DNA of 64,000 nucleotides from Symbiodinium sp. CCMP2592 (taxonomy: Eukaryota > Sar > Dinophyceae > Suessiales > Symbiodiniaceae), in assembly GCA_905221615.1 (NCBI GenBank), contig CAJNDT010003557.1:1621988-1685987 (forward strand). Reading direction: 5' to 3'. This document shows positions 21,676 through 38,731 of the stretch, in pieces. Numbering within the stretch: position 1 is the stretch's first letter; every line of letters starts with the position of its first letter. The notes beneath the pieces are model-generated. The model did no database searches, had not been told where the DNA came from, and saw only the letters and a program-made list of their open reading frames with translations. A program made the position numbers and the translations under genes.

Positions 21676-21931
21676 GATCATCATCATCATCAGCAGCAGC
21701 ATCACTATCGATCACCACCCATACCAGCGGCAGCGGCAAAAGCAACAGCAACAGTAACAACGACGACAACAACAGCCAGAACCACGACGTCAACGACAAC
21801 AACAACAGCAACAACAACGACGGCAACGGCAACAGCCACAGCGACGACAACGACAACAGCAACAACGGCAACAACAGCAACAACAACAACACAAACAACA
21901 GCAATCATACCAACAACAACAACAACAACAA

Positions 21932-21966
<35 letters not shown>

Positions 21967-21990
21967 CCACCAACAACAACAACAACAACC

Positions 21991-22041
<51 letters not shown>

Positions 22042-22043
22042 CC

Positions 22044-22095
<52 letters not shown>

Positions 22096-22161
22096 GCAAC
22101 AACAACACCAACAGCAACAACAACAGCAGCACCAGCACCAGCACCAGCACTTGCAGCACTT

Positions 22162-22197
<36 letters not shown>

Positions 22198-22277
22198 CCA
22201 GCACTTGCAGCAGCAGCAGCAGCAGCACTTGCAGCAGCTGCAGCAGCAGCACTTGCAGCAGCAGCAGCAGCAACAAT
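21676..22277. repeat. CAR trinucleotide tract (CAA/CAG)
   Basis: About 600 bp of CAA, CAG, CGA and ATC-type trinucleotides with pure (CAA)n at about 21965-22095 and (CAG)n at about 22160-22275. All three frames stay open on both strands, giving poly-T/A/Q-type translations that are not genes. Confidence 0.95.
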
Positions 22278-22583
22278 AATAATAATAATCATCATATTCA
22301 TCATATTAATCATAATAAGCATAATCATAATCATGATCATAACCATAATACTAATAATAATAGCAATAATAACAATAATAACAATAATAACAATAATAAT
22401 AATAATAATAATCATAATATTAATAATAATGATAATAATAATAATAGTAATAATATTAAGAATACTAATAATAATAATAATAATAGGAATAATAATAATA
22501 CTAATAATAATAATGATAATAACAATAATAACAATAATAATAACAATAATAAGAAGAAGAAAAAGAAGAATAAGAATACGATT
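22278..22583. repeat. AAT/AAG tract, left flank of the LINE insertion
   Basis: Imperfect (AAT)n with AAC and ATC variants, turning into AAG-rich repeats before ending at AGAATACGATT (22573-22583). The AAG/AAT texture resumes right after the same 11 bases at 36505-36515, so the tract was split by the retrotransposon. Confidence 0.92.
22573..22583. repeat. Target-site duplication, 3' side of the LINE
   Basis: AGAATACGATT here is identical to 36505-36515. It directly abuts the T run (A-tail on the minus strand) at the 3' end of the element. The boundary is uncertain by one or two T bases. Confidence 0.85.
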
Positions 22584-22650
22584 TTTTTTTCTCGGCGGAT
22601 TGCAGAGTCGACAGACGCATCCGTAGCAATGAATTCAGTGAAACGGGAAT

Positions 22651-25600
22651 CTACTGGATACGCTTCCACCAGAAACTACGCGTTCCTGCTCGTGGCGGTT
22701 CTCGTGTGCGGGTGTGGAGGTCACTGCACACCCATGCCGCAAACGCGGGGTTCTGCGGAGGCTGAACCAGTAGGGAGATCGGGGCATCTTCCCCTAGCGC
22801 GCTGAGCAGTTCAGCGCGCGTAGGCTGGGCCGGGCCATATGCCTGTAACACCGGTTGGTTGGCATCGAAGGCCTGCCAACAACCTGTACGTAGGCGCTTT
22901 TGGTGCGCGCGGTCTGCCTGCTCAATGGCGCGCACGGCCGGTAAATCCAACGGCGGCATCAGAAGATGCACCCGGGCAAGACAGCGAGGGACACTCCTAA
23001 GATGGTTTTGCGCACGAGGAATGGTGTGGAAGTGCTTGAGGCAGGCGAGGCAGGTAGCGTGAGGCGCGAAAAGACGCTTGGGAGCTGGCAAGCCATGGCG
23101 GCGAACGATGTGAACACTCAGGTGTTTCTTGAGCGGAAAGCTGGCAGAGCAGAACGGGCATTGAAAGTCAGCCTCAGCAGGCAGAGGCGAGGGTGACAGC
23201 TGCCCGGTCGGCTCGGCACGAAGTCGTGCCCAGCGCTCGAGGTCGGCAAAATAAATGCGTGTGGCAGCATTGATCTGCCGGCGCCACCATGTGCGATCCT
23301 GGAGCATGGCCTCAGTCAACGCAAGTAAGGGGCAGGGGGAGTCCAAGACCAGTTTCGCTGCGGGGCAATACATGGCCACATACTCAATATCGCCTTTGAG
23401 CATGGCCAGCCATGAGCGCTCTGGAGAGGACTCCCACTGGAGCCACCATAAATGCAGGAGGGTCTGGGGTCCATGCTCTAACACCCGAAGGTATAGACTG
23501 GCCCTGGCCTTGGCAAGTGCAAGAGGGGGAGCAAGTGCTTGGGCCTGCCGCAAGACTTCGTATGAGTGGATCTTGCAGGCAGAACACGACCGTGGTTGCA
23601 AGGCCTTCCAGATGGAAGTATACAATCTGGCCCATAATCGCCACTGGTAGGCGACGTGCAGCTCCATAGTTGCAGAGCCGTAGGTGAACTTGGTGGCAAC
23701 AAGAGAGCCAAGAAGCGTACGCCGCAGCGGGAGTGGGATACTGGGATTGCCAAAGAGGGTACCCCGCAGCGGGCGCAAAGTCCAGGTACACTGCGAGTAA
23801 CGGTAATAAATCTCGGGGAGCAGGGATGCAGAGCAGGTAACGATCCCGCCGAGATGCTTGTATGCCTGGACAGCTGGCAGATGCACCACACACCCTGAAA
23901 CACCGTCATGAACGGGTATGGCATGGGAGTAAGCAGCGCCAGAAGGCGGCGGGTCACACACGCCGGCAAATAAGACGGCAGGCGGTAGAAGTGCCGCGGT
24001 TTTGTCGACAGCAAAAGAGAGCTGCATACCGATGGAGGTGGCATGGGTAAGAAAGGCCGAAGTGGTGGCACGAACCTTGCTCACAACCTGAGGGGGATTT
24101 GCCGCTGACATCATGGCTGCGAAATCGTCGGCCCATGAGGCGGGCGGCAGGTCCCGGGCGTCGGCGAGCCCATCGACCGGCAGGCGTGTGACACAAGGAG
24201 GCAGCACCGTAACAAGGGCTTCCCGCTGCAAGGAAGTCTGGACAGAACGGATATAGGCGCTGAAACTCAGGGCAAAGAACACGTCTGCTAGCGGATCGCC
24301 AGGGCGGACGCCTGCCGCGGTGGCGACTAACTCCGCGTGCTGATCGAGCCTGAACCACGTCCCACGGAATAACTCGCGTGTGACAGCCTCGAGATGCGGG
24401 GAGCCACCCCCGTCTGCAATGTGGTTAAGACTAGTCAGGTGATCACGGAGCTCTTCGAGGGCCGCGGGCGGTACTCCAAGCTTGTGAAAAAGAGACCGGA
24501 TGACAAAGTCATCTGGAGTGGCGCCGGTAAGGGTCTCTCGCACTACTTGGTAGTAAGCCGCACGAACATCAAAAAATACAACAGCTGGGTGCTCACCAAG
24601 GGCATGAGCGTGCGCTTGGAAACTACGCACAGCAGTAGCTATTGAATCCACTCCTACCCCTGGGTGGACGCCGCCCATGAGGTCATGGCCAACCCGCCGG
24701 AGGAGGGGCGTAATGCGCTTTCTCAGGCTTTTGTGCAGTAGCTTCCCAGGCACGCTAGATAGGAGGATGCTCCTATACTTGTCACACTCGAAGGCGGCGG
24801 ACGCTTTCTTCGCTAATGTCATCAAAGCTCCTCCTTTGAACTCAATAGGCTCACGCAGGGTAAGTAAGCTTTTGACAAAGAGAGGTAGCAGCTGGCGCGC
24901 AGCAGTCGGTACCGCTAATTTGAGCAACTCGGACGTGACACCGTCCGGGCCAGCAGCCTTGCCTCTCTTGAGCTGGAGCACCGACCCTTCTAGTTCACCA
25001 AGAGAGGGAAGCAGAAGGGGATCAAAAGCCGGCACAACAGTGGCACGGTGCTGACCATCCGCAGCAAATTGCTGGGCATAGGCAGAAGGAGTGACAGTTT
25101 CGCCGCATTCCTGGGCGGCGAAATGGCCATTCCACCGAGCAGCACGCTCTGCTCTGGTGGTAGCCAATTCGCCGTTAGCGAGTGCTACCGCTGGGAGCGG
25201 CGTGAAGCGTGACCGCTTAGCCGATGCAGCCTTGGGAAAGGCCTTCCGGACACAGTGGTAGAGATGGCGCGGATCACGCATATCTGCCTGTCCGACCTCG
25301 GAGACAAGTTTCTCGAGGTAGCGGCAGCGATCAGTCTTGACAGCCTGGCGAACGTCGGTGCCAAGCCGGTTGAGTTGACCCCATGTAACGGCGAGCCGTT
25401 GATTGGCTTGTCTAACCCAGTGCCACGTAGCAGCAACATCAGTGGCAGTAAGCAGTGAACCTGCTCTGGAGTGGGTAAAGGCAGCAAACGCGGTGACAAG
25501 AAGGCGCCGTTGGAGCTCCTTTTCCGCAACCCTTAGGGCTATGCGAGTGTCCTTGCGGGCTCTGATAACACCAAGCGTATGTGCGGTGAGGAAGCTCTGC

Positions 25601-28600
25601 TGGGGTCTGGCAGGGGAATGGGGCTGGACACTGCGCCCGGCAGCCGTCCAGACCTGCACAAAGGAAGCAAAATGACTGTCAACGTCCGCAGTCCAAGCAA
25701 CAAGTGGGGCAGAGTGTACGGCCTGGGAAAAAGCCTGCCGATCCACATCGGGGTCAAGGTCATTGGGGCGACAGGCGATCCGGCGAAAGGCATCGGCGGT
25801 ATGCGACCGACCCTCTCGTGCAAAAGTGCACTCAAGGATGACAGGCAGATGGTCGCACCGTTTCTGCAGAGCCTCAAAGGTGTGCCACACCCGAGAACGA
25901 CAGACAAAACGGGCCCAGGACTGGGGAATGCCAACATAGTCGATGCGGTGCTGGTCTCCGTGAGGGGATTGCCATGTCCAGGAGGCGCCATGGTGCGCTT
26001 CTGGGAAGGTAGCTGGAAGCCACAACCCATTGCGCAGAAGGAAGCTGTGAAAGTGGGCAGCGGCAGGGGTCTCGGTTTCTGCATGATGCGACCCGACAGC
26101 TTCGCTCTCAAGGCTACCTAGGCGGGAGTTAGCGTCAGCTAGCAACAGGATTGGGACATCCTTGGGCAGGCGGCCTAAATCCTGGGTCCTGGCAGCCCAG
26201 AAGGCATGAAGGATGCCGTGTTCGTCCTGCGGGTCCGAAGGTGCATGCACAACAAGGACCCCGAGGCGCAAATATGGTGCCTCAACACAGACGACAAGAT
26301 GTCGAGGAGAAGTTGCTGAAACGGTGCAATGCTGTGGCTCCAGGCAGAGAGGCTTACCGGCAACAGTTGCATATGGGATATCCTTGCTGATCCAGAGGGC
26401 ACATCCGTAGTTACCGGCCTCGTTAGCCCCTGAATGGAGCAGGATGTGTGTCCGGTCTGGCAGCTGGGCGGTATCTTGTACCCTTGTCTCTTGTAGGCCA
26501 GCGAAAAGTACACTTTGTGATTGCAGCTGGCGCAGAATCACATGGCGGCGGCCAAGAATACGGAGACCAGCATGCACTTTGGCCTGTCTTTTGGCATGGG
26601 CACTCTCAAGGAGAGTCAAGACATTGAAGGTCACCGCGGTGATATGATATCGGACAGATTGTGGCGGCTGATCCTGTGAGCGCACAACCCCACATCGAGG
26701 CGGAGGTCGGGGCTCAGGAGTGAGGGCTTGAAGCCGCCGTGCTTCAGACTCGAACGCAAAAAGCGTGGGAAGGTCTGGGGCGGCTGTATGAGCAAGCCAA
26801 GCCCAATCAAGCAGCTTATGTGCAACAAGGCAACCAGGCCATTCAGGCAGGACACGTTCATCGATCGGGGGAATCTGTCTGCGGATGTACTTGGCAAGTG
26901 CGTCACTAAGCTCATTACCTAGCACACCTTGGTGCCCCGGAGTGTAATCAGAGGTAAGGATAACGCGAGTCTCAGCAATGTGCCGGAGGGCAACAGTAAC
27001 ATGACTAAGGCATGGGCCGCCGGCGACTCCTGACACTCTAGAAGGCAGCGCATGGGCGAAAGTACCCTCCCCTGCGGCGGTACAATCATAGTGGAGGTGA
27101 ACAGGACAACAGAAGGTGGGGCCATGTTCAATGATCCACGTTAGCGCCCAGGCGATGCCAAGCAACTCACTAGTAAGCGGTGAGTCGTCCGATTCGCCAA
27201 GAAAAGACCTGGTGAAAGGGGCAACAGCAGTACCCGCGGCAAAGCCGTAGAAATACCAGATGCCAGCGGTCTCGACCCAGACATTGAATGCCCAGCCGCA
27301 GGGTGCACTTGCAAGGGGCTCATGCTTGCCACAAGCGGAACCGTCTGTATAGACGTGTACGCTACTAGCTGCGTTGCTGCCGCTGGCACCGTTGGTGTGC
27401 CAATAGGCAAAAGTTGGGATCGCAGCTTTGACCTCTGGGGAGGTATCAGGGGCGGCGCACAAGGGCCGTAAATCATTGTCAAGCCAATCCGGATCACCGG
27501 CTGCAGCGACAGCTGGAACGAGGGTCTGAAGCTCCAGGCAGTCAGTTTGGTAGTCCGTGAGCGGCACGGCCTCAGCGAGCTGGATAACACGCTCGGGTCT
27601 CTCGGGAGACCCTTTGGAATGCGCAGCGCAGCGGCAAGACGCTGCGGCGGGGGCTGCGTGTGCATTGTGCTCTAATAGAGTCTCAAGCAAAGTAGAGGCG
27701 AGAAAGGCCCAGGTATTGTCTCGCTCCGCAGCGAGGTCGAGAAGGGTAGGCAGGCCAAGAGCTATGCCGGGGCGCGGCCGGGTCTGTGCAAGGGGCGGCG
27801 CTCCTGAGACAAGCTCGGAGTCCGTAAGGGGGGGAGCCCCGTGTGCAGCAGTGTAGCGATCCAAGCCGAAGACATCCGCAGCAGTAGTCTCGAGAGGAGC
27901 GCCTAGTAGACTGGGAACTGTGGGGCTGCATGCTGGCCGCCGCGTGCGACACGGCGTGGCGACAGGGCGGAAGGCAGGACCAATGGCAAAGGCGAGGCCC
28001 AAACCGCAAGGAGGTAGTCCGATGTCACCAGGTGTTGTATCGGTGGGTGCAGCGGTAACAACAGGTATTGTGACGGCGGCAAGCAAGAGAAGGACAAAGA
28101 GAGGCGGCCAGCCGGGGTGCCTCCCCCTACCAAGTCCGCGAATCAACTGTGCTGGAAGGAGGGCAAAAAGCACTCCAAGGGTACCCAAAGCACGCACAAT
28201 GGCGAGCGAGCAGGAAATAAGTCGCAGTCCACCATGCAGGAGGATAGAGGTGAACGCCAAGCTACTCACTTGTCGCCACTTAACTACTCGACTGACATGG
28301 CTTCCGCGCGGTGTTTCAAAAGAAGTCGACACGGCAGTTGTGCTGCCAGGCGGAGGGGCGGCACCATCCCCGGGCCGTTGGGCGCCACCAGTGCCTGCAT
28401 CGGTACGCCATGAAGTCTGCCAGTGGCCATCTGGTCCGGTGGAAGCCGCAGCAGTAGAAGCATTGGGGGCGGCAGGACCTGGAGTCCCAGGCGTAGGACC
28501 TTGCAAGGGAACAGTCCCATTACCTGGAGCGTAACCTGATGTGCCAACCGGGAAGGCGTCAATGGGCATAAAGGCTAAGACAATGACTTCGCCAGGTTGC

Positions 28601-31600
28601 ACTGGCAACACAGCAGGCAGGATGCAAGGGCCGAGATCCGGATGAAGTCGGCAGAGCAGGAAGCCACGGGGACATCGCGGATCGAAACGCTGGTGAAGGC
28701 GCGCAGTGTCGAGGCCACCGCCACCGGCGGCAAGCCTGGTAATGCCACTAAGGGCAGGCCTGCCGTCGATGTAGCAGAGGACACCCCCATGTCTTGCTTC
28801 GTGGTTGAGCGGGTCCGCTCCAAGCACAGCGATGACATTGAGGGAGAGAACCCCTTGGGCGGCATGGTCCCTAATAGCTGGATCGGGCGCGACAAGCGTA
28901 AGGCTGTCGGCCCTTGCATGTACAGCGGCTGCGACGTCGTCCCGAAAAAACGAACGCCGCCCTGGGGGCACGATAAACATGAAGTTGCCAGTGTCTGCAA
29001 GAAGCCACACGGTGTCCCGGTAGACCGCGTCGGGGGCCCAATCAGGACTCCAGTCATGAGAAGAGGCGAGCAGCGCACCAAGGGATCGGGTTGGGATAGG
29101 GACATGTGCAGCCTGAGCAACAGGCGTGACAACAACAGTGTCACCTGTTCGCAAGTCGTAGACTGCACCCCTGGGAAGGGGCCAGGGAAGGTCTCGGAGG
29201 TAAAGGTCGACAACCGCATCCGCGGCAACGCCAAGCGCTCGGAGCAAGTCATCCCTCCGAGCAACGCGAGGGAGCTGTAACGCAAAGACAGCTCCATTGA
29301 TCCGCGTCAAGTCACAGGCGATGGTGACTCCATCTGGAGTCCAGAAAGGGAGTGCAAGAAGGAACGCAACGCCGGGGATTGTTTGTGGATATGCCACAAC
29401 GAGCCTGGGCATGCACAGCCTGGAAAATGGAGCTCTTGCGGCCCCGACCCGCTCAAGCGCGAGGTTCTCCGGACAACCAACGGGCAAACGCGCATGGACT
29501 AGCTCGGGGCAGTAGTCCTGTGCTAAGACAAGGAAGGTTCCGGAAAGATACGCATCAGGCAAATCGACGGCGATGGCAGTAGCAGGACCATCTGCCACAG
29601 CAGTGTCGTCCGGAACCGCGGTGGGTAGGCCGGAGGAGGCAGCAGAGCCTGACGGATTCGCAGTGGGACCAAAAGACTGGGGAGGGCCTGTGGGGTGATG
29701 CAGGGGGGCATCATCATCGGGCGCGGCAGTAACGGCAGCATGTTGCTGGTCCATGGGCCCTGCCGCGGCGTGTCCAGTAAGCCTGGCAGCAGGAATTGCA
29801 ACGCGACCTAGACGATAAAAGGCAACAAGCACCTGACCTGGGTAGACATCAATCTCGTCCAGGCCGTCAGGGATGTTGTGCAGACAAGCCTGCCAGCCTT
29901 CGGGGGAACCATGCCCTAGGTCGACACGGAGAGTGTCGCAGGAGAGCCGGTGCCGCCTGGCGATAAGAGTCTGCCAGCCGCGTCCAAGGGCGCGCAGGTC
30001 AAGCAGTACCGCACACCAAGGAGGGGGCCCTGTCTCTGCCCCATTGCAAACAGCAAGTATGGTGCGACACAGGAGGCCATTGAGAGTGGCATCGGTGACA
30101 CGAGGCACAGCAGGAACTAACTGTAGAGAAGCGAGAGGGATGCCAAGTGCCGCAGCGACTTGTGGGCGGTGTCGAGTGGGCCGCCGAGGGTCGGTCAAAT
30201 GCAGAACTTGTTCATCGTGGTAAACAAGGGCATATGCATCTGGCGCAGCATGTTCGGCAGCTGGCATACTGCGGCGCCACATGCGCCAATCAGTAAGCAT
30301 CCAAGCAAGCGATAGTGGCCGCGGTGGGACGTACTCGGGCGGTGTGAAAAAGACAACAAGCCCGGTCCACAGGTGGACCCGCACGTCGGTGCCCAGGGGC
30401 TGTGGGTCATCCCCAACATAAACTGCTACACCAAGGTTAAATTGGATGTCAGCAAGATGTAGGAGGGCAATCTTATCGGCATAGCTTGGCGCTGCCACAG
30501 CAAATCGGCGGCCATCAAGGCGCGTTGCGTCTATACATACTATCTGCCCCTGTCGTTGCCAATCAGCGATCGCGACCACAACTCCAATGCCCTGCTGTGG
30601 CTGCGGCTCCGCTGGTGCCAGAACATGGAACCATTGGCTGTGCACACTGTTGCGAGCGTGATGGACTGTGTCCAGGGCTTCGACAAGGGTAGCAGGGTAG
30701 CGAATAAAAACAGCGACGTGCTCAGGGGCATATCCAGGTGCATACAGTGCAAAGAGCGCAAGCCGATCTGCGATGTCTGCATCTTCAGGGTCCTCTGTGT
30801 CGCTGGAGCCAGGAATCACTTCCGCATCTGCAGCAGGCAGATAGCGCCAGGCTTCGCCTAATCGCGGGGCGAAATACCGTAAGACAGCAAGGGCATGGCG
30901 GGAAGCAGCGCTGTCAGATTGCGGTTCCAGAAGGAGCTTGGCACAGCGAAGGCGATGGGCAGTGTGCTGCCTACGGACCTGTGCAACTACAAGGGCAAAG
31001 AACAAAATCCCGAGGAAAAGGCCCCATAACCCTATGATGTGGGTGCATGTCGCGCGGCCAACAGGGCCAGCGAGCTCAATGCCAGTGTGCGGGGGAATGA
31101 AACCATAGAATGTACCCGGAGCGGCACAAGCATTATGCAGCTGTTCACTAAGCGTGCACCCTATAATTAGCTTGACGGCAAGCCCATGGCCGCCAGGACG
31201 ATTGGGGTGTGCGGCACCATCGCGGCGCCGTTTACGATTGCGATTGCCCGGTGTAGGGGCAGGGGCAGGCTTAGGTGCTGGCGGCACAGAAGACGTGCTG
31301 CTGGAGTCGTCCGCATCGGACTCGTCATTTGGAGGAATAGGTCCCTCAGTGGCTCCTGGCTCGAGCAAGTCGTCCTCGTAGGCGACTTTCAGGACCTGAC
31401 CATTGTCGATGCGTAAAAAGGTTTTTTCCCCTTCACGTTCTGGCGTACCCCCGGTAACAGAGGTATAGAAGCCGGAGGGCACTGGGTCGAACTCCTGGAG
31501 AAGAAGGTCCAAGTCGACCCTTCCGGTCGGTGCAATGTGCCAAGTGATATCGGCAAGCATGGCGCGCCGGTCCACCGCATATGCAATGCAAGGCGGCCGG

Positions 31601-34600
31601 GGCCGGGCTGGAGGAAGCGGCGGCCCGATGGGCTGCTCAGTGGCGATCAACACGGCTCTGCACACAAAACCCTGGAAGTTGTAGTCGGCTACCCTGGGGT
31701 GCAGGGTCTGCAAGGATGCACGATGCTCTTCGTAACGGAGAAAAGCAACCGCAAACTGTCGCAGGGCAGTATACGACGTCGAAGCCGAAGTAGGAAAATC
31801 GACAATGGTATTCCAGGCATCAGTGAGCAGATAGAAGGGCGTCTGAAGAAAGCCACCAAAATCAGGCACAGGCAGATGCCAGCCGTCGGGCTGGTTCAGC
31901 ATATCCGGCAACCAAGAGACACCTGGCAAAGCGGCTTGTGCGGGAAGGAGAAAAATGACGTCTCCTTTGCTCAGAAACAGTGCCTCATGTGCCTGGTGCA
32001 GATGACCTCGGTGCGCGACTCTAAAGCCTAAGGATGGCTTGAGACTCACTTGTGCCAAAACGGAGCTGGGATAAATGCCACTCTCAAAGCATGCAGCAAA
32101 AAGCCTGCCGTCTATAGCACGAGCGTCAACAATGATGCACACGGCCTGAGTGGCCCACCCTGGCAGCGCGATAAAGGTGCAAAATCGCGAGTCAGGTTGG
32201 GGTTGTGCTACCACAAGGTGTTCATATGTGGTTTCGAGAAGCTCGCGACGCCGTGCCTGAAGTGCATCGCACGCCCGCTGAGGTGTGCAAGGAATGTCGA
32301 GCGAGAGCTCGTAGGTGGCAGGCGCAACTCGAGGGCAGAGAACGAGGAACCCCACATGTATAGGTGACCCAAGACCGACCTGGGGCGGCACTGGAGCTGA
32401 CGCGGCTGTCAAAGGGCGTGCATTGGCGGCAGACGCAGGACAGGCTGTGCGTGGCGATGCAACGGAAGCAGCATCAACGGGTGCGTCTTCATATTCATAG
32501 CCAAGGGTAAGTACCCGTCCATCCGCGACAGGTAGGCCCTCCCGTCGCAGCAGGTCATGCTCGGCGAATGTCCGGAAGCCCCGGGGTGGGCGAAGGCCAA
32601 GTATGCGTACGCCATCTTGCGTAGGGACAACCAATCCATCTCCCTCGAAGAGAAAGCCCAGCCCCCTGGCTGTCTGGCGAGCATCGAGGAACACAAAAGA
32701 CCCTAGATTCGGACCAGGGGGCAGGTGCTCAGCTCTAAAATCGACGGCACAGATTTTGTCGTACAACAAGCCATGGTGCACAACGTCTGCTAATGGCTCA
32801 GTTGGGTGCCCGAAACTGACATGTTGTACTTGGCGGTCCATGTGGTCGGCAATGGCCTGCTGCAGATCATCGGTAAAGGTCCCGTAGAACGGGAAGCTGC
32901 ACACTGTCTGTGGCATAATGACGAGCCAAGCTGAGGTTGGTCGCTCAAGTAGGATCTGGTCCGGTTCACGCTGCCACGTTGCCGGGCTGGCGAGAAGGAC
33001 GGAGAGGTCTGCATCTCGTAGGAGCGGCTCGTCTCTCGGCAAGATACAGATCACATCACCGCCTGCAAGACGAGCCTCGCTGCCTGCAGCAAGCGGCTCA
33101 AACTCGTTGGGCATGTAGGCGTGCCAAAGCTCATCAGTGCGCATGGCGACTGCTGTTTCCAGATCCCGATAAGTGAGTGGGTTGTGGAAAACGTGAGCAT
33201 AGGTGGGGCCGCGTAATCTTGAAAAGTCGAGCAATACAACTTGGCGGCGGTCCTCGGGTACCCAGTCGGGCACGACAAGAAAACTGGCGTAGCCGCATCC
33301 TGGCTGAGGCCTAGCAGGCAGCAAGTGTGCAGGGGACAGGCGCTGAACTAAAGCAGAAGCTGCAGCAACCTGAGCAGTGAGTGCAGTTTCGTCGACCTGG
33401 CTGGAGACGTTCAGAACAAGATGCTCCGTACGGTAACCTGCAGCGAAGACTAAACAATGCAACACAGGATCGTCAGGGCCGCTGGCGGCAGCAGTAGTCA
33501 GAGAGTCGGGGGCTGGTGCGGCATGGGCATCCGAGCTAGCAGCAGGGTCAGCGGCGAGAGGCTCACCTGGACAAGCTGCAGCCCAATGGCGCGTGAGTAG
33601 AGCACCAGCCTGTCCTTCACCGGGCATCGCCCAAACCTGGTGAGGAAGTGAATAAAGGATAAGGGCAGTGTAGAGACGTGCAAGCCAGCTAGGTGCTGTG
33701 GCGTGTCGTCTTACCTGCGGCCGTCGGGAGGCATGGGGGCGGCCCGCAGTCCACACAATGGGAGGCTGCGTGCCGATTGATGCAACAACTGCGATGGCAG
33801 ACAACCATCCTGGCGCGTTGGGAGTGTGGTCTTTCCGGTGTGGGGCAGAAACAAGCCTGCGGCCGAGAAGGGAACTATACCAAACCCAGATCAAAAACCC
33901 GAGGCAACCAATGGTTAGAGTCCGCCCACAGGCGGCAAGAACGCCTTCACACCAGGCCTCATCAAAGGAGCACAGCGTCTCCTGGGCACAGGCATGAAAG
34001 GCAGGGATGGCGTTCGTCAAAATCCGAGCATAGCGCAAACAAGTTACGGAGGATGCTGCGGGGTAGGCGGCTTCGGTGACTAAAGCAAGGGAAGCTCCCA
34101 ACCAAAGACTAGAAAACCAAAAGCCATCGAGGTACCTAAAAACCAGAAGGTCAAGTTCTGGGCAGGCACTGCGGGGGAGGGCTACCGCGGTCAATGCCCC
34201 AGAGCCACCGATGCATTTGTTTGGCACCTGGCAGCCACCCCCGTCACTCACTGAAGGAGCCCGGGAAACCTCACAGAGGACGTCCGGGGATCCTGTGTCA
34301 CGAAGCTGATCTGTGTCACAGCAGGCGACCTTCAAGCAACATGCTTCGCTGGAACCCAGAAGAGAGCAACCGCGAAGCTGCAAGGCTGACGCGTGGTGGC
34401 GAAAAAGTCGATCCTGGCAGGTTACCGCCCCAGAGCCACCGATGCGGTTATTAGGCACGCTGCACTTGGGAGAAGGGCAGGTGAGGCTCACCCACTCCAA
34501 TGCATCAGAGGTGCAAGACAAAACTGGACCACGCCGGCTGGCGTAAGCAGAGGGCATGGTGTGGCAGGGAGCACACCACGTCCAAGGGTCAAACAGACAA

Positions 34601-35046
34601 CCTTGGGATGAGGTAGATGCAAAATCGTCACCACTCAGGAATGAGGGCAGCTGCGGCAGGGCCCCAGTACCAAAGCGGTCAAGAAAACCGTTGGTACCAA
34701 AGGCAGAGGAGGACGGGCCCTTCCAAAGCATGCCAACCTTCCAAGCCCAAGAAGGCAGCACACCTTGTAGGGAGCCGGCGACAAAGGAAGAAAACAACCA
34801 CTTGCAGGAAGCAAAACCTGTAAAGTGGAAGAATCCAGAGAGACATGTACAACCTACACTACGTCGGCTCAGTTCAGCCTGGGTCATGGCATGAGTGCTC
34901 GGCCAGACCCCACTGCATTGACCGGAGGAAACATGGTAACAGATGCAGCTACCAGGGGCCCGAAGACCCGGGTAGCCGCAACCGTACGGCGGCTCCTCAA
35001 GTCTGCGAGTGGGGTGGCCAAACACCCTTTGCTCAGAAATAGTCAT
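22651..35046 (-). CDS. LINE ORF2: repeat modules, RNase H, APE endonuclease, RT, zinc fingers
   Basis: About 4131 residues from the ATG at 35046-35044, which overlaps the ORF1 stop. The frame is open further upstream, but there it is antiphase to ORF1. Residues 1-500 are Cys/Ser-rich with hydrophobic segments near 300-320 and 375-395. Four ~327-residue modules of unknown function lie at about 526-852, 897-1225, 1426-1752 and 1834-2162, with hydrophobic segments near 1334-1357 and 2265-2335. RNase H is at about 2563-2720 (YTDGSA, SELLGIA, YDCTAAG, GHQG..N..SD). APE endonuclease is at about 2800-3075 (TFNV, LQETRV, ADANS, RIDYVG, DHLPV). RT is at about 3350-3780 (AAGPDGVT, FFDVRAAYY, GVRPGDPLAD, WADD, YKHLGG). 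C2H2-type fingers lie at about 3961-4024. It should nick target DNA and prime reverse transcription of element RNA. Confidence 0.9.
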   Translation of the reverse strand: MTISEQRVFGHPTRRLEEPPYGCGYPGLRAPGSCICYHVSSGQCSGVWPSTHAMTQAELSRRSVGCTCLSGFFHFTGFASCKWLFSSFVAGSLQGVLPSWAWKVGMLWKGPSSSAFGTNGFLDRFGTGALPQLPSFLSGDDFASTSSQGCLFDPWTWCAPCHTMPSAYASRRGPVLSCTSDALEWVSLTCPSPKCSVPNNRIGGSGAVTCQDRLFRHHASALQLRGCSLLGSSEACCLKVACCDTDQLRDTGSPDVLCEVSRAPSVSDGGGCQVPNKCIGGSGALTAVALPRSACPELDLLVFRYLDGFWFSSLWLGASLALVTEAAYPAASSVTCLRYARILTNAIPAFHACAQETLCSFDEAWCEGVLAACGRTLTIGCLGFLIWVWYSSLLGRRLVSAPHRKDHTPNAPGWLSAIAVVASIGTQPPIVWTAGRPHASRRPQVRRHATAPSWLARLYTALILYSLPHQVWAMPGEGQAGALLTRHWAAACPGEPLAADPAASSDAHAAPAPDSLTTAAASGPDDPVLHCLVFAAGYRTEHLVLNVSSQVDETALTAQVAAASALVQRLSPAHLLPARPQPGCGYASFLVVPDWVPEDRRQVVLLDFSRLRGPTYAHVFHNPLTYRDLETAVAMRTDELWHAYMPNEFEPLAAGSEARLAGGDVICILPRDEPLLRDADLSVLLASPATWQREPDQILLERPTSAWLVIMPQTVCSFPFYGTFTDDLQQAIADHMDRQVQHVSFGHPTEPLADVVHHGLLYDKICAVDFRAEHLPPGPNLGSFVFLDARQTARGLGFLFEGDGLVVPTQDGVRILGLRPPRGFRTFAEHDLLRREGLPVADGRVLTLGYEYEDAPVDAASVASPRTACPASAANARPLTAASAPVPPQVGLGSPIHVGFLVLCPRVAPATYELSLDIPCTPQRACDALQARRRELLETTYEHLVVAQPQPDSRFCTFIALPGWATQAVCIIVDARAIDGRLFAACFESGIYPSSVLAQVSLKPSLGFRVAHRGHLHQAHEALFLSKGDVIFLLPAQAALPGVSWLPDMLNQPDGWHLPVPDFGGFLQTPFYLLTDAWNTIVDFPTSASTSYTALRQFAVAFLRYEEHRASLQTLHPRVADYNFQGFVCRAVLIATEQPIGPPLPPARPRPPCIAYAVDRRAMLADITWHIAPTGRVDLDLLLQEFDPVPSGFYTSVTGGTPEREGEKTFLRIDNGQVLKVAYEDDLLEPGATEGPIPPNDESDADDSSSTSSVPPAPKPAPAPTPGNRNRKRRRDGAAHPNRPGGHGLAVKLIIGCTLSEQLHNACAAPGTFYGFIPPHTGIELAGPVGRATCTHIIGLWGLFLGILFFALVVAQVRRQHTAHRLRCAKLLLEPQSDSAASRHALAVLRYFAPRLGEAWRYLPAADAEVIPGSSDTEDPEDADIADRLALFALYAPGYAPEHVAVFIRYPATLVEALDTVHHARNSVHSQWFHVLAPAEPQPQQGIGVVVAIADWQRQGQIVCIDATRLDGRRFAVAAPSYADKIALLHLADIQFNLGVAVYVGDDPQPLGTDVRVHLWTGLVVFFTPPEYVPPRPLSLAWMLTDWRMWRRSMPAAEHAAPDAYALVYHDEQVLHLTDPRRPTRHRPQVAAALGIPLASLQLVPAVPRVTDATLNGLLCRTILAVCNGAETGPPPWCAVLLDLRALGRGWQTLIARRHRLSCDTLRVDLGHGSPEGWQACLHNIPDGLDEIDVYPGQVLVAFYRLGRVAIPAARLTGHAAAGPMDQQHAAVTAAPDDDAPLHHPTGPPQSFGPTANPSGSAASSGLPTAVPDDTAVADGPATAIAVDLPDAYLSGTFLVLAQDYCPELVHARLPVGCPENLALERVGAARAPFSRLCMPRLVVAYPQTIPGVAFLLALPFWTPDGVTIACDLTRINGAVFALQLPRVARRDDLLRALGVAADAVVDLYLRDLPWPLPRGAVYDLRTGDTVVVTPVAQAAHVPIPTRSLGALLASSHDWSPDWAPDAVYRDTVWLLADTGNFMFIVPPGRRSFFRDDVAAAVHARADSLTLVAPDPAIRDHAAQGVLSLNVIAVLGADPLNHEARHGGVLCYIDGRPALSGITRLAAGGGGLDTARLHQRFDPRCPRGFLLCRLHPDLGPCILPAVLPVQPGEVIVLAFMPIDAFPVGTSGYAPGNGTVPLQGPTPGTPGPAAPNASTAAASTGPDGHWQTSWRTDAGTGGAQRPGDGAAPPPGSTTAVSTSFETPRGSHVSRVVKWRQVSSLAFTSILLHGGLRLISCSLAIVRALGTLGVLFALLPAQLIRGLGRGRHPGWPPLFVLLLLAAVTIPVVTAAPTDTTPGDIGLPPCGLGLAFAIGPAFRPVATPCRTRRPACSPTVPSLLGAPLETTAADVFGLDRYTAAHGAPPLTDSELVSGAPPLAQTRPRPGIALGLPTLLDLAAERDNTWAFLASTLLETLLEHNAHAAPAAASCRCAAHSKGSPERPERVIQLAEAVPLTDYQTDCLELQTLVPAVAAAGDPDWLDNDLRPLCAAPDTSPEVKAAIPTFAYWHTNGASGSNAASSVHVYTDGSACGKHEPLASAPCGWAFNVWVETAGIWYFYGFAAGTAVAPFTRSFLGESDDSPLTSELLGIAWALTWIIEHGPTFCCPVHLHYDCTAAGEGTFAHALPSRVSGVAGGPCLSHVTVALRHIAETRVILTSDYTPGHQGVLGNELSDALAKYIRRQIPPIDERVLPEWPGCLVAHKLLDWAWLAHTAAPDLPTLFAFESEARRLQALTPEPRPPPRCGVVRSQDQPPQSVRYHITAVTFNVLTLLESAHAKRQAKVHAGLRILGRRHVILRQLQSQSVLFAGLQETRVQDTAQLPDRTHILLHSGANEAGNYGCALWISKDIPYATVAGKPLCLEPQHCTVSATSPRHLVVCVEAPYLRLGVLVVHAPSDPQDEHGILHAFWAARTQDLGRLPKDVPILLLADANSRLGSLESEAVGSHHAETETPAAAHFHSFLLRNGLWLPATFPEAHHGASWTWQSPHGDQHRIDYVGIPQSWARFVCRSRVWHTFEALQKRCDHLPVILECTFAREGRSHTADAFRRIACRPNDLDPDVDRQAFSQAVHSAPLVAWTADVDSHFASFVQVWTAAGRSVQPHSPARPQQSFLTAHTLGVIRARKDTRIALRVAEKELQRRLLVTAFAAFTHSRAGSLLTATDVAATWHWVRQANQRLAVTWGQLNRLGTDVRQAVKTDRCRYLEKLVSEVGQADMRDPRHLYHCVRKAFPKAASAKRSRFTPLPAVALANGELATTRAERAARWNGHFAAQECGETVTPSAYAQQFAADGQHRATVVPAFDPLLLPSLGELEGSVLQLKRGKAAGPDGVTSELLKLAVPTAARQLLPLFVKSLLTLREPIEFKGGALMTLAKKASAAFECDKYRSILLSSVPGKLLHKSLRKRITPLLRRVGHDLMGGVHPGVGVDSIATAVRSFQAHAHALGEHPAVVFFDVRAAYYQVVRETLTGATPDDFVIRSLFHKLGVPPAALEELRDHLTSLNHIADGGGSPHLEAVTRELFRGTWFRLDQHAELVATAAGVRPGDPLADVFFALSFSAYIRSVQTSLQREALVTVLPPCVTRLPVDGLADARDLPPASWADDFAAMMSAANPPQVVSKVRATTSAFLTHATSIGMQLSFAVDKTAALLPPAVLFAGVCDPPPSGAAYSHAIPVHDGVSGCVVHLPAVQAYKHLGGIVTCSASLLPEIYYRYSQCTWTLRPLRGTLFGNPSIPLPLRRTLLGSLVATKFTYGSATMELHVAYQWRLWARLYTSIWKALQPRSCSACKIHSYEVLRQAQALAPPLALAKARASLYLRVLEHGPQTLLHLWWLQWESSPERSWLAMLKGDIEYVAMYCPAAKLVLDSPCPLLALTEAMLQDRTWWRRQINAATRIYFADLERWARLRAEPTGQLSPSPLPAEADFQCPFCSASFPLKKHLSVHIVRRHGLPAPKRLFAPHATCLACLKHFHTIPRAQNHLRSVPRCLARVHLLMPPLDLPAVRAIEQADRAHQKRLRTGCWQAFDANQPVLQAYGPAQPTRAELLSALGEDAPISLLVQPPQNPAFAAWVCSDLHTRTREPPRAGTRSFWWKRIQ

Positions 35047-36278
35047 CCCATGCGTCCCAAGCCAGGCGAAGCCGCCCGCTCGGCTGCACAAGGCGACGAT
35101 TCGGACTCGGAGAGGTCGAAGACCGGCACTGCCGGGGCTGCACCAGTGTGGACCGAAGCCGGCGTCGGCGTAGCACCCTCGCTGTCCACAGCAGTAGATG
35201 TAGCTCCCAACGCACTGGGCGCTGCCCCATCCGGAAATGGCATATGCATATTGGCAGCCAAAAGTTCCATGGCACGACGTTGCTCCAGCTTCTGGTCGAG
35301 AGAAAGGCTTCCAGTAGGTGGGAGCGGTGCAGCAGGACGCTGCTTCACGCTCTGCCTTCCCCTCCCAGTGGCAGAGGCGTGCCTGGTGCGGCTGCCCGGG
35401 GAGGGCTCTGGCGTTGGAGCTGCCGCATGTTTGTGACCTCCAGGTGATTCGACATAGGGCACCCCCAGGGTGGCCGCATCGTCTCCATGGGGCACGTCGG
35501 TCGGCATAGCAGTCACGTGAGCAGCAGCACCACCACCTTGCTGAGCAGCCAAAGCGGAGGCCCTGGGGTCGCTTGGCAGCAGCCCAGGCGGAGCTGAGGA
35601 AGCCAGAGGCCCGCCAATTCCTGCACTCAGAGAGCGCACGGCAGCCATGGCAGCAGCCAGGAAGCCAGAGGCGGGGCGTTCCGGTGCCAAATTGCAAGCC
35701 TGCATCATTTGGTCCCAAGCCGCATCCTGGGGTGGTTCTGCCGCAGCCTTGGGCAAGGTACCATAGAGGGCAACCGCTTGCATCTTCTCGGCTGCCTCGC
35801 GGCCAGTAGTGCTGGCTTGCTGAATCTCCGTTTCCAAGCGCTTCTGGTCCGCCTCGAAAGCGCGTTGCTGCTTGAGGAAGGCAACTTTCATGCCCCTTTC
35901 GTACGCAGCCCATTGCTGCTTCTTGTACTCTTTGTCCTCCTGCAGCTTGTAGATGCGGGAGTCGGCACGCTTCGCCTGCGTCAGGATCTTCTGGAGCTCC
36001 TTGCGGAAGTCCGAGGTCTCGTGCATGCCATCCATAGGGACATCTGTGGCAGCAGCGGCGGCTGTTCCAGGTGCGGGGCGCTGATCGTTGACAGCAACCT
36101 GGTCGTAGCGGGTCTCGGCACCAACCTGTGCCGCACGCTGCGAACGCGGCGACACCGGCCACGAGCCACGCCAGTACTTGTACTTGTCGCCTTGCTGCTG
36201 GTACGAGTCTCGGCCGTAAGCAGAGTCTTGCCCGTGCTCTTTCCATTTCTGTCCACCTCGCTTGCGTCCGCCGCCCAT
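35043..36278 (-). CDS. LINE ORF1 protein, coiled-coil
   Basis: About 411 residues from the first ATG (MGGGRKRGG, 36278) after the element's 5' end. The frame is open to 36434, but only through a GTG with Arg/His-rich shadow-like sequence. The N-terminus is basic and Gly/Lys/Tyr/Gln-rich, which suits RNA binding. Residues about 92-155 form a charged coiled coil (KELQKILTQAK, KRLETEIQQ). The C-terminal half is Ala/Pro/Ser-rich and ends in an acidic patch (FDLSESES). No CCHC knuckle or RRM is visible. By analogy with other LINEs it would package element RNA as an oligomer. The stop codon TGA at 35045-35043 overlaps the ORF2 ATG. Confidence 0.75.
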   Translation of the reverse strand: MGGGRKRGGQKWKEHGQDSAYGRDSYQQQGDKYKYWRGSWPVSPRSQRAAQVGAETRYDQVAVNDQRPAPGTAAAAATDVPMDGMHETSDFRKELQKILTQAKRADSRIYKLQEDKEYKKQQWAAYERGMKVAFLKQQRAFEADQKRLETEIQQASTTGREAAEKMQAVALYGTLPKAAAEPPQDAAWDQMMQACNLAPERPASGFLAAAMAAVRSLSAGIGGPLASSAPPGLLPSDPRASALAAQQGGGAAAHVTAMPTDVPHGDDAATLGVPYVESPGGHKHAAAPTPEPSPGSRTRHASATGRGRQSVKQRPAAPLPPTGSLSLDQKLEQRRAMELLAANMHMPFPDGAAPSALGATSTAVDSEGATPTPASVHTGAAPAVPVFDLSESESSPCAAERAASPGLGRMG

Positions 36279-36504
36279 GCGGAGCTCTGCAAACCTGGGT
36301 CGCGTATGGTGAGCAGCAAGCAGACAAAGGTCTCGGCGCCAGGGTGGGAGTCCCAAATCGCGGCAGCGATGGACTCGACCACGGGCCCTGGAGCGTTTCC
36401 GACGGGCCGCCCGATGCCAAGTCGGGCTTCTCACCGCCGTGGCGTGCTACAGCACTGGGGATTCGGCTATGCCTGTGCTACGGGCAGGCTCGATCCGAAA
36501 CCCT

Positions 36505-36560
36505 AGAATACGATTAAGAATAAGAATAAGAAGAAGAAGAAGAATACTAATCATAATTAT
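36505..36560. repeat. Target-site duplication and right half of the split microsatellite
   Basis: AGAATACGATT at 36505-36515 duplicates 22573-22583. It is followed by AAGAATAAGAATAAG and (AAG)n, then AATACTAATCATAAT text like that on the far side of the element. From 36561 to 36880 no gene is seen; this stretch is the upstream flank of the next gene. Confidence 0.9.
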
Positions 36561-36880
36561 GATAGCAATAACAAAGACAGTATCAAGAGAAAGGACAACA
36601 ACAATCACAAGCACAATGACAGGTGAATGCACGGGACTGTAGGTACCCTCATGCCATACATTCATGCACAAAGCCCGGCTTCCGTAACCAGTGCCAATCC
36701 TCATCTGAAGTTCTGAAGCTGCCTTTCGGGTGCAGGTCCAAGCATGTGAGTTCATATGAGGTGGCAGTATACGTCTAGGGGCTGGGAGCTGGAGAATGTT
36801 GCGCCGAATCATGCAGTGGTTGCAGCTGTAAAAAGGCTCAGAGACGACCCCAGCACCACTTCCGCAGACTTCAACTCCTC

Positions 36881-38731
36881 ATGCCGCAGCAGTCCAAAGA
36901 GAAATATCTCTCACAGCTGACCGAAGTCCCGGCCGGCTGGCCCCTGGCGACCGTCGTCGACGCCTTTGTCGACATGTCTGTCATGTCTGTTGATTCTGAT
37001 TCGGACCGAGCTCGCGCGGCGCTGAGACTGCGGCTCTTGGAGCTCTGGGCCTCGCAGCCGGAGGAGGCCGAGGCCTGGCTGCAGCGGTGCCGGGAGCACT
37101 TCGCGACGCAGCTCGCGGGCAAGGCGACGAGGCAGGAGCTCCTCAGCGAGGCGCTGCTCCAGCACGGAGCGGTCGAGTGGGGGAAGTACGGTCCGGACGC
37201 CTGGCGCTTCTCCGAGGCGGGGCTCCTTCGAGGCGAGATCCGCCCAGCAGCGGACGAGTGGGAGTACTGGGCGGCTGTGTACCTGCAGTGGCCGTACACC
37301 CGCGCTGGCTGCTGGGAGCTCGCGGAGCGGCTCGTCGAGGCGGAGAGCTCGGAGACGGCGCGGAAGCGGCAGAAGCTCGAGGAGGAGACCTCCCAGCGCC
37401 GGCGCCTCGAAGCGGAGCTCCAGCAGTCACAGGAGGAGGGCCGAGAGCTGCGCAGTCGCGTGGCTGCGGCGGAGGCGGAGGTGTCCAGCAAGGACGCGGA
37501 GCTGCAAACTGCACAGAGCGAGAGTGCCCGGTGCAAGGAGCTGTGCCAGGAGCTCGCGCACGGTGCGGCATGTGCAGAGGAGATGCGGAAGGAGCTCCGA
37601 GAGCTGCAGGAGCAGCATGGCAAGTGCCAGGAGCACTGCAAGGAGCTCGCGAGTCGCTTGGACGAGGCAGAGGCAGAGGCATCCGAGCATGCAAAGACCA
37701 AGGAGCGTCTGGCTCAGGCCGAAGCCGATGCCGCTGAACAGAGGCTGGAGTTGCGGCTGCAAGGCGAGAGTCGCGGCTACGAGGACTGTGCACCGGAAGA
37801 GGCCAAGAGCAAGGTGGAGCTACGAGTCGAGAAGGCGGTTCTCTTGGAGCGGTGCGAGCAGCTCCGACAGCATCTTTCCAAAGCAGAGGCTGAGAGATCG
37901 GCTATGCTTGGTCAAATGCAGGTCTTGTGGGAAGAGAAGGCCACTTACAAGGAGCGCTGCCGGCAGCTGGAGCGCCAGCTGACCGAGGCGAAGCCGCCCA
38001 ACTCCGGCAGCCCTTCCGTCCATATCAGTCTCACATTCCAAGGCCCAGTACCAAGCGAGTCAGATCTGACCGAGTATATTGTGGTGGACGATGACTTGAG
38101 CCACTCCTCCTGGTTCTCGGTGAAGCCCGACTGCTTCATGCCAGACGCCATCTTCAAGACCCGCAGCTCCGGCGTGGACTTCTTCCTCATGGGCCGCGAC
38201 CTCCGGAAAGGATCCCAGGTGGTTGCCGCAGACGATGAGACCATTTTGGAGGTTTGCGAGGCTCCGGTGCTGTCCCGTGCCAAAGAAGTCGTTCGCTTGC
38301 AAGCTGGTGCCGCGACACTGAGCGTCACGCCCGACCATCAGGTGCAGGTCCCAGCAACGGAGGATTCGAAGGAAGGTGGATTTGGCGGAGGCAGTGACCG
38401 CTACGTCCCGGCCGGAAGCCTGAAGCCGTGTGCTTTGGTCATGCTCGACTCCGGGGAGCCCGCGGCCCTCACGGGCGTAGCATCAGAAAGCGGCGACTTC
38501 GAGGTGTTGAAGCTCGCATTCAAGCCGAACCGGCCAGTGGCAGTATTCTCGCGCCCACCCTGCATCCTCAGCAAGGGCGCCAACAGCAAGCCGGCAACCC
38601 GCCGTGCAAACATGGGGCGGCGCCACCGAGGTCCGTGTGGTACGGAGGAGGTGAATGCAGACGACGGAAGAGCCTCCATCCCGAACACGGCTGGAACATC
38701 AACTGAGATACTGCTGAGAGGCGCAGCATGA
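36881..38731 (+). CDS. Coiled-coil protein with C-terminal Hint-like domain (copy 2)
   Basis: A 616-residue intronless paralogue of the gene at 4165, in the same orientation 32.7 kb away. The two start alike (MPQQ, then LTEVPAGWPLATV) and match through the head and the coiled coil (about 157-366; shared KRQKLEEE). Both end in the Hint-like region: candidate nucleophile Cys418 (CFMPDAIFKT), GSQVVA block, and Thr483 and His486 in VTPDHQVQ, with Cys-to-His spacing of 68 residues against 65 in copy 1. The later block reads LKPCA where copy 1 has LKPGD, so one otherwise conserved Gly-Asp is lost and the domain may be altered. The coiled coil lacks copy 1's poly-Q. If active, the domain would cleave or splice the chain at the Cys; this is inferred only. 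Confidence 0.8.
   Translation: MPQQSKEKYLSQLTEVPAGWPLATVVDAFVDMSVMSVDSDSDRARAALRLRLLELWASQPEEAEAWLQRCREHFATQLAGKATRQELLSEALLQHGAVEWGKYGPDAWRFSEAGLLRGEIRPAADEWEYWAAVYLQWPYTRAGCWELAERLVEAESSETARKRQKLEEETSQRRRLEAELQQSQEEGRELRSRVAAAEAEVSSKDAELQTAQSESARCKELCQELAHGAACAEEMRKELRELQEQHGKCQEHCKELASRLDEAEAEASEHAKTKERLAQAEADAAEQRLELRLQGESRGYEDCAPEEAKSKVELRVEKAVLLERCEQLRQHLSKAEAERSAMLGQMQVLWEEKATYKERCRQLERQLTEAKPPNSGSPSVHISLTFQGPVPSESDLTEYIVVDDDLSHSSWFSVKPDCFMPDAIFKTRSSGVDFFLMGRDLRKGSQVVAADDETILEVCEAPVLSRAKEVVRLQAGAATLSVTPDHQVQVPATEDSKEGGFGGGSDRYVPAGSLKPCALVMLDSGEPAALTGVASESGDFEVLKLAFKPNRPVAVFSRPPCILSKGANSKPATRRANMGRRHRGPCGTEEVNADDGRASIPNTAGTSTEILLRGAA

Follow-up and report, generated by a model that had tools for sequence, protein, structure and literature searches.

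A full-length Symbiodinium LINE whose ORF2 carries a predicted array of sixteen ubiquitin-like domains

What is a module of about 327 residues, repeated four times, doing in the reverse transcriptase (RT) protein of a retrotransposon? The question is raised by a 64,000-nucleotide stretch of contig CAJNDT010003557.1 from Symbiodinium sp. CCMP2592, an alga of a coral-symbiont type (assembly GCA_905221615.1, positions 1,621,988 to 1,685,987; this whole stretch is called the window, and coordinates are counted within it), where a first-pass annotation noticed four such modules in the second open reading frame (ORF2) of a presumed long interspersed nuclear element (LINE) and named no identity for them. 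It is proposed that the element is a full-length Symbiodinium LINE, that its ORF2 contains sixteen ubiquitin-like (UBL) domains in a row, and that this array grew by doubling and acts as a non-conjugating scaffold. We assign this statement as a whole a probability of roughly 0.55; the fold and the LINE anatomy taken by themselves are very probably as described below.

The four-module array is a 1,640-residue stretch of ORF2 ahead of the RNase H, endonuclease and RT domains. Its modules lie on the minus strand at 32482-33471 (M1) and 31369-32370 (M2), both recognised by profile and pairwise matches, and at 29782-30780 (M3) and 28552-29565 (M4), both modelled with AlphaFold. Although pairwise identity is 20-29% and the shared motifs are short, all six module pairs score above 500 of 500 shuffles, which bears out the fourfold repeat of the first-pass annotation. 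Its further proposal that each module consists of two half-units holds as well: unit 2 against unit 4, like half 1 against half 2, scores well above shuffles, and the other five of the six unit pairs do not. The set of modules used for comparison comprised 60, each covering 285 profile positions or more. Near-copies above 90% identity were removed from this set (left out were the duplicate records L009, L039, L041 and P0001, then L010/L011). BLASTP of the sequence against itself reported no repeats, and separate pairs with shuffles were used instead. Comparison of the modules with Pfam, NCBIfam and PDB sequences gave nothing usable: no Pfam match was found for the 18 modules tested, ubiquitin-family profiles included, and the PDB sequence searches gave no significant ubiquitin-family match. 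A composition of four different known domains is ruled out by the mutual homology of the modules, and no Pfam family reaches the cut-off in the module region.

Structure prediction and a fold search, both suggested by the first-pass annotation, point to four beta-grasp UBL domains per module; a four-UBL prediction had preceded the modelling. The AlphaFold models of M3 (predicted local distance difference test (pLDDT) 80.9, predicted template modelling score (pTM) 0.80) and M4 (pLDDT 90.1, pTM 0.89) both consist of four successive beta-beta-alpha-beta-beta domains. The best PDB match of both in Foldseek is linear tetra-ubiquitin (E 3.7e-8 for M3, 1.6e-9 for M4), with the UBL arrays of USP7 close behind and FERM-folded talin also among the matches. 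In the M3 model the predicted beta-grasp units are located at 30565-30768 (unit 1, DSSP pattern E5-13, E20-27, H32-42, E53-56 and E65-71), 30340-30549 (unit 2), 30043-30240 (unit 3, pLDDT block means 49-80) and 29806-30021 (unit 4, homologous to unit 2), and in the M4 model at 29350-29550, 29110-29331, 28822-29025 (unit 3, pLDDT block means 84-92) and 28561-28785, all on the minus strand. Unit 2 has both the beta-beta-alpha-beta-beta order and a superposition on ubiquitin; for units 1, 3 and 4 the secondary structure and the whole-length tetra-ubiquitin alignment fit, as seen within the module models. Linear di-ubiquitin (2w9n) aligns with the M4 model over 125 residues (model residues 80-251) at a root-mean-square deviation of 11.9. 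In VIA comparisons, unit 2 reaches Z scores of 8.3-9.6 to ubiquitin and to the molybdopterin synthase subunit of 5mpo, which we take to be MOCS2A, and for a multi-ubiquitin filament of bacteria the Z score is 8.4; the rows shown, which unit 2 fills, almost all have titles that name ubiquitin or a ubiquitin-like protein. A viral structure library returned an uncharacterised phage protein at rank 1, pestivirus polyprotein fragments at ranks 2 and 4, and a putative ubiquitin at rank 3, with several further rows of the ubiquitin family. Each module looks like four UBL domains and the ORF2 array like sixteen, those of M1 and M2 being assigned by homology to M3 and M4.

The LINE itself is a 13.9-kb minus-strand insertion at 22582-36504 (13,923 bp), which starts 5' with AGGGTTTCGG and ends 3' with a tail of nine A. 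It is flanked by a 9-bp target-site duplication (TSD), TCGTATTCT, whose 5' copy lies at 36505-36513 and whose 3' copy lies at 22573-22581; the ends were set by the TSD and the A-tail. A second copy, on contig C503, has a DNA identity to the window of 92% in the 5' part and 96% in the 3' part of the stretches compared. The match between the two breaks off near 36526 and 22585, and the C503 copy has its own, different duplication, GGCCCTTATA, plus an A-tail. These matching limits, together with the TSD and A-tail of both copies, lead us to read 22582-36504 as a full-length insertion. Trinucleotide-rich repeats occur on both flanks (21700-22580 and 36505-36620, with about 900 bp of TTA/TGC/TTG type on the 3' side), and the insertion lies within a microsatellite or at its border. 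ORF1 (35043-36278, minus strand) encodes 411 residues from its first ATG, and its stop overlaps the start of ORF2 (22651-35046, minus strand), which encodes 4131 residues from the ATG at 35046, corresponding to residues 478-4608 of a stop-to-stop frame (36477-22651) of 4,608 codons. The ATGA overlap at 35043-35046, which the C503 copy retains and the divergent C5277 and C4953 lack, suggests that ORF2 is translated by re-initiation. No Pfam family above cut-off was found in ORF1, and no methyltransferase occurs among its Pfam matches at E ≤ 1. Beside the element, a 616-residue open frame on the plus strand (36881-38731) is charged and coiled-coil-like, with no Pfam family above cut-off.

Downstream of the array, ORF2 contains an RNase H at 26869-27360 with the motifs TDG, E, D and D (weak Pfam RNase_H match, E 0.045, and support from relatives), an APE-like endonuclease of the endonuclease/exonuclease/phosphatase type at 25798-26643 (PF03372, E 2.2e-4, and motifs), an RT with an ADD motif at 23728-24960 (RVT_1, E 0.0038) and C2H2 zinc fingers at 23002-23166 (weak Pfam matches and motif spacing), all on the minus strand. 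The motifs of these four domains are recognisable, yet every Pfam score is under the curated cut-off; the RT assignment draws also on PDB sequence matches to an RNA-directed DNA polymerase (8c8j) and to L1 ORF2p (E 0.004-0.011, with 0.005 for L1 ORF2p). The element thereby combines the attributes of a LINE, namely a LINE-type RT, an APE-like endonuclease, and a TSD with a 3' A-tail. The position of RNase H upstream of the endonuclease and RT is an unusual domain order for a LINE; in the available excerpts of PMC4640811, RNase H upstream of RT is called unique for oomycete Utopia.

Modules of this kind are found in many copies. A search of the 1.098-Gb assembly (5,383 contigs) with M3 gave 1,157 candidates and 121 scored module matches (weakest E 4.8e-41), four of which have a stop inside the match and 47 of which belong to open frames that run for 3,500 residues or more (longest 5,233). 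When 24 of these 121 matches and 24 of 90 RT matches, chosen by eye for shared contigs, were compared, 19 module-RT pairs lay on the same strand no more than 12 kb apart, with a spacing of 5.48-5.80 kb in 17 pairs and of 4.3 and 9.4 kb in the others. Two complete modules were present in all six RT-selected elements that were absent from the module list (3 kb each; M3-M4 spacing in three, M2-M3 spacing in three), a result that applies to intact elements only, as the six were chosen for long open frames (4,094-4,367 residues). Ten homologous proteins have the endonuclease match in every case (partly in P0005), the RT in nine and the RNase H in eight, with precomputed PF03372 in four. The LINE context supposed at the outset is thus confirmed by TSD, A-tail, copy ends, enzyme motifs and RT-linked relatives alike. 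In keeping with an earlier hint at dinoflagellates, the nearest named proteins are from Symbiodinium: Symbiodinium sp. CCMP2592 (S. tridacnidorum in the excerpts of PMC8045281) comes first with four gene models, and further relatives belong to S. microadriaticum, S. necroappetens and the records Symbiodinium sp. KB8 and CCMP2456. Their public names ("CFDP2", "unnamed", "hypothetical", "C2H2-type domain-") are silent on the array. A protein database profile search, limited by its word step and its length range of about 180-580 residues, scored 7,997 candidates and found none with a module at E ≤ 0.001, and scans with six short peptide patterns each found no relative in viral contigs (M3, M4) or prokaryote genomes (M3).

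The C5277 copy (L039/L040) has five modules, or twenty predicted units, the first module being weak (56 bits), and the C4953 copy has four, so array length differs between elements. Within the extra C5277 pair, one module has firm support on the M3 side (100/99), and the other is placed weakly on the M4 side (84/38). In a tree of the same 60 modules as above, from which the weak first C5277 module was left out, the 18 M3 rows all fall into one clade (98/83), as the 16 M4 rows do into another (99/92); M1 (two rows) and M2 (seven rows) are not single clades and come with a long-branch warning. Since M3 and M4 each form one clade, at least these two modules predate the divergence of the sampled elements. 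We propose that the module arose by the doubling of a two-domain unit and was then itself multiplied.

The modules are under purifying selection. Pairwise ratios of nonsynonymous to synonymous substitution (dN/dS) are 0.04-0.23 in M3 and M4 where calculable, for example 0.06 at dS 0.31 and 0.76, and the M2-M3 linker evolves faster (0.10-0.40); pairs below 55% identity or 80 codons are unlisted, saturated pairs have no ratio, and the many values with dS above 2 are rough. The closest copies, L010/L011, differ by a dS of 0.012 in M3, which together with the long open frames suggests recent copying in at least this clade, with segmental duplication as the alternative. A 15-genome study, in the available part of PMC8045281, considers it likely that the LINEs of Symbiodiniaceae are left over from an ancient expansion. 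That the repeats are a chance resemblance or a decayed, non-functional region could be argued from their short motifs and low pairwise identity, but the shuffle tests, the low dN/dS and the long open frames in many copies reduce this reading to a negligible probability. In slots M2-M4 the four units are alike in mean identity (36-53%), and this similar conservation speaks against a working site confined to a single predicted unit.

A conjugated modifier requires a free Gly-Gly end, and no conserved Gly-Gly is present here: any GG near the unit ends occurs in 1/60, 2/60, 7/60 and 0/58 cases at the four unit positions. For this reason we read the array most readily as a fixed scaffold, not as a precursor of conjugated modifiers. 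Linear poly-ubiquitin genes do exist, and the predicted match to linear tetra-ubiquitin would suit a poly-UBL precursor from which proteases of the host or of the element release free modifiers; however, beyond the missing Gly-Gly, only about seven residues join units 1 and 2 in the models and the sequences of the units are not interchangeable, which makes such processing highly improbable. In the scaffold reading, the units would be a permanent part of the RT protein, never released, and the array would hold partner proteins or other ORF2 copies beside the RNase H-endonuclease-RT machinery. USP7 uses a fixed UBL array as a scaffold, and bacterial multi-ubiquitin filaments offer a second analogy. 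We put this multivalent role forward tentatively, at a little under even odds; the binding partners may be host UBL-binding proteins, nucleic acid, membranes or the array itself.

Some other proteins have fixed UBL domains that bind the proteasome or p97, and the array might likewise mimic ubiquitin or poly-UBL chains and interact with Cdc48/p97, proteasome shuttles or deubiquitinases of the host ubiquitin system, with ORF2 stability, the unfolding of chromatin factors or the stripping of host restriction factors as possible gains. By Foldseek E-value the predicted beads match linear tetra-ubiquitin above any other solved structure; without significant sequence similarity to ubiquitin families, however, the usual binding patch need not be present, and we consider both the mimicry and these gains doubtful.

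Hydrophobic segments accompany the array. One stretch directly before M1 (33628-33696) was noted by eye and was not flagged by the hydropathy scan, and similar stretches are seen by eye in the C4953 and C5277 copies. The M2-M3 linker (30781-31368) contains a segment flagged by hydropathy (31053-30973) and a WRYLPA.DAE stretch present also in C5277. Two neighbouring segments at 28039-28221 precede RNase H, where three are flagged in C5277 and one in C4953, so that hydrophobic segments precede RNase H in all three elements examined; at its low cut-off the scan also flags a few strands within modules. All these features lie on the minus strand. Small-residue motifs resembling signal-peptidase sites follow two of the three hydrophobic segments by eye, as in a membrane polyprotein, and a DAGTGG motif after M4 (28384-28401, ORF2-frame residues 2693-2698) is common, again by eye, to the window, C5277 and C4953 copies. 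Judged from sequence, membrane attachment of ORF2 through the hydrophobic segments is possible.

Beta-grasp folds serve many purposes, and the predicted units could bind RNA, DNA or membranes, so that the RT would be fused to another nucleic-acid platform resembling ORF1. A LINE has to package its RNA, parts of the array have hydrophobic segments beside them, talin with its FERM fold is among the Foldseek matches, and the top VIA row is the molybdopterin synthase subunit and not ubiquitin, within about one Z unit. Ubiquitin and UBL arrays nevertheless dominate the listed structural matches, and no nucleic-acid-binding family reaches the cut-off in the modules; such a platform seems unlikely. 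Equally speculative is a wider model in which a large Symbiodinium LINE clade has an ancestral, selected array of 16-20 domains that, with its hydrophobic flanks, would mimic poly-UBL chains and recruit ubiquitin machinery or self-assemble, driving insertion into the permanently condensed dinoflagellate chromosomes. Among these proposals the fixed scaffold is the one we favour.

Several known systems resemble parts of this arrangement. USP7 (HAUSP), with five UBLs and a deubiquitinase, likewise combines several UBL domains and a catalytic domain in one chain and is among the best Foldseek matches, but it aligns at 8-12% identity and lacks retroelement enzymes. Linear tetra-ubiquitin or polyubiquitin shares the row of four beta-grasp beads predicted here and differs in that the array has no Gly-Gly, 8-10% identity in alignment and mutually different units. 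The bacterial multi-ubiquitin-domain proteins (9d59, 9d5a, 9d5b, 8u38 and 9cd2) are chains of about 146-219 residues without an RT; they are known here by their PDB titles, no paper on these filaments having been found in the open-access literature. Among retroelements, OTU proteases occur in LINEs. The SymbioLINE-Dnmt elements of Symbiodinium likewise combine TSDs, endonuclease and RT with an additional domain, but according to PMC5890265 that domain is a methyltransferase encoded by ORF1 and the elements have no poly-A tails; the word ubiquitin is not used in its text. The present element has no methyltransferase among the ORF1 Pfam matches at E ≤ 1 and differs from that group in this respect. 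Some NeSL/Utopia non-LTR elements carry a domain from ubiquitin-like biology, and oomycete Utopia has RNase H upstream of RT; in contrast to our element, the excerpted PMC4640811 describes a Ulp1-like protease rather than a UBL, and a restriction-like rather than an APE-like endonuclease. Among the published elements compared here, the nearest precedents are the methyltransferase-bearing LINEs of Symbiodinium and those non-LTR elements that have a Ulp1-like protease or an RNase H ahead of the RT. Judged from titles and abstract starts among the matches listed in the open-access literature, no paper describes UBL domains in such an element.

The LINE as a kind of element is already known; for the sixteen predicted UBL domains in its ORF2 no precedent was found in the open-access literature searched. 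Some known non-LTR elements carry a Ulp1-like protease (PMC4640811, in the available excerpts), and the present LINE seems to contain the ubiquitin-like fold as such, in sixteen copies, in an array apparently built through repeated doubling and kept under selection, of which public annotation and Pfam give no sign. It provides a defined domain with which to probe the benefit of a fixed UBL array to a retrotransposon.

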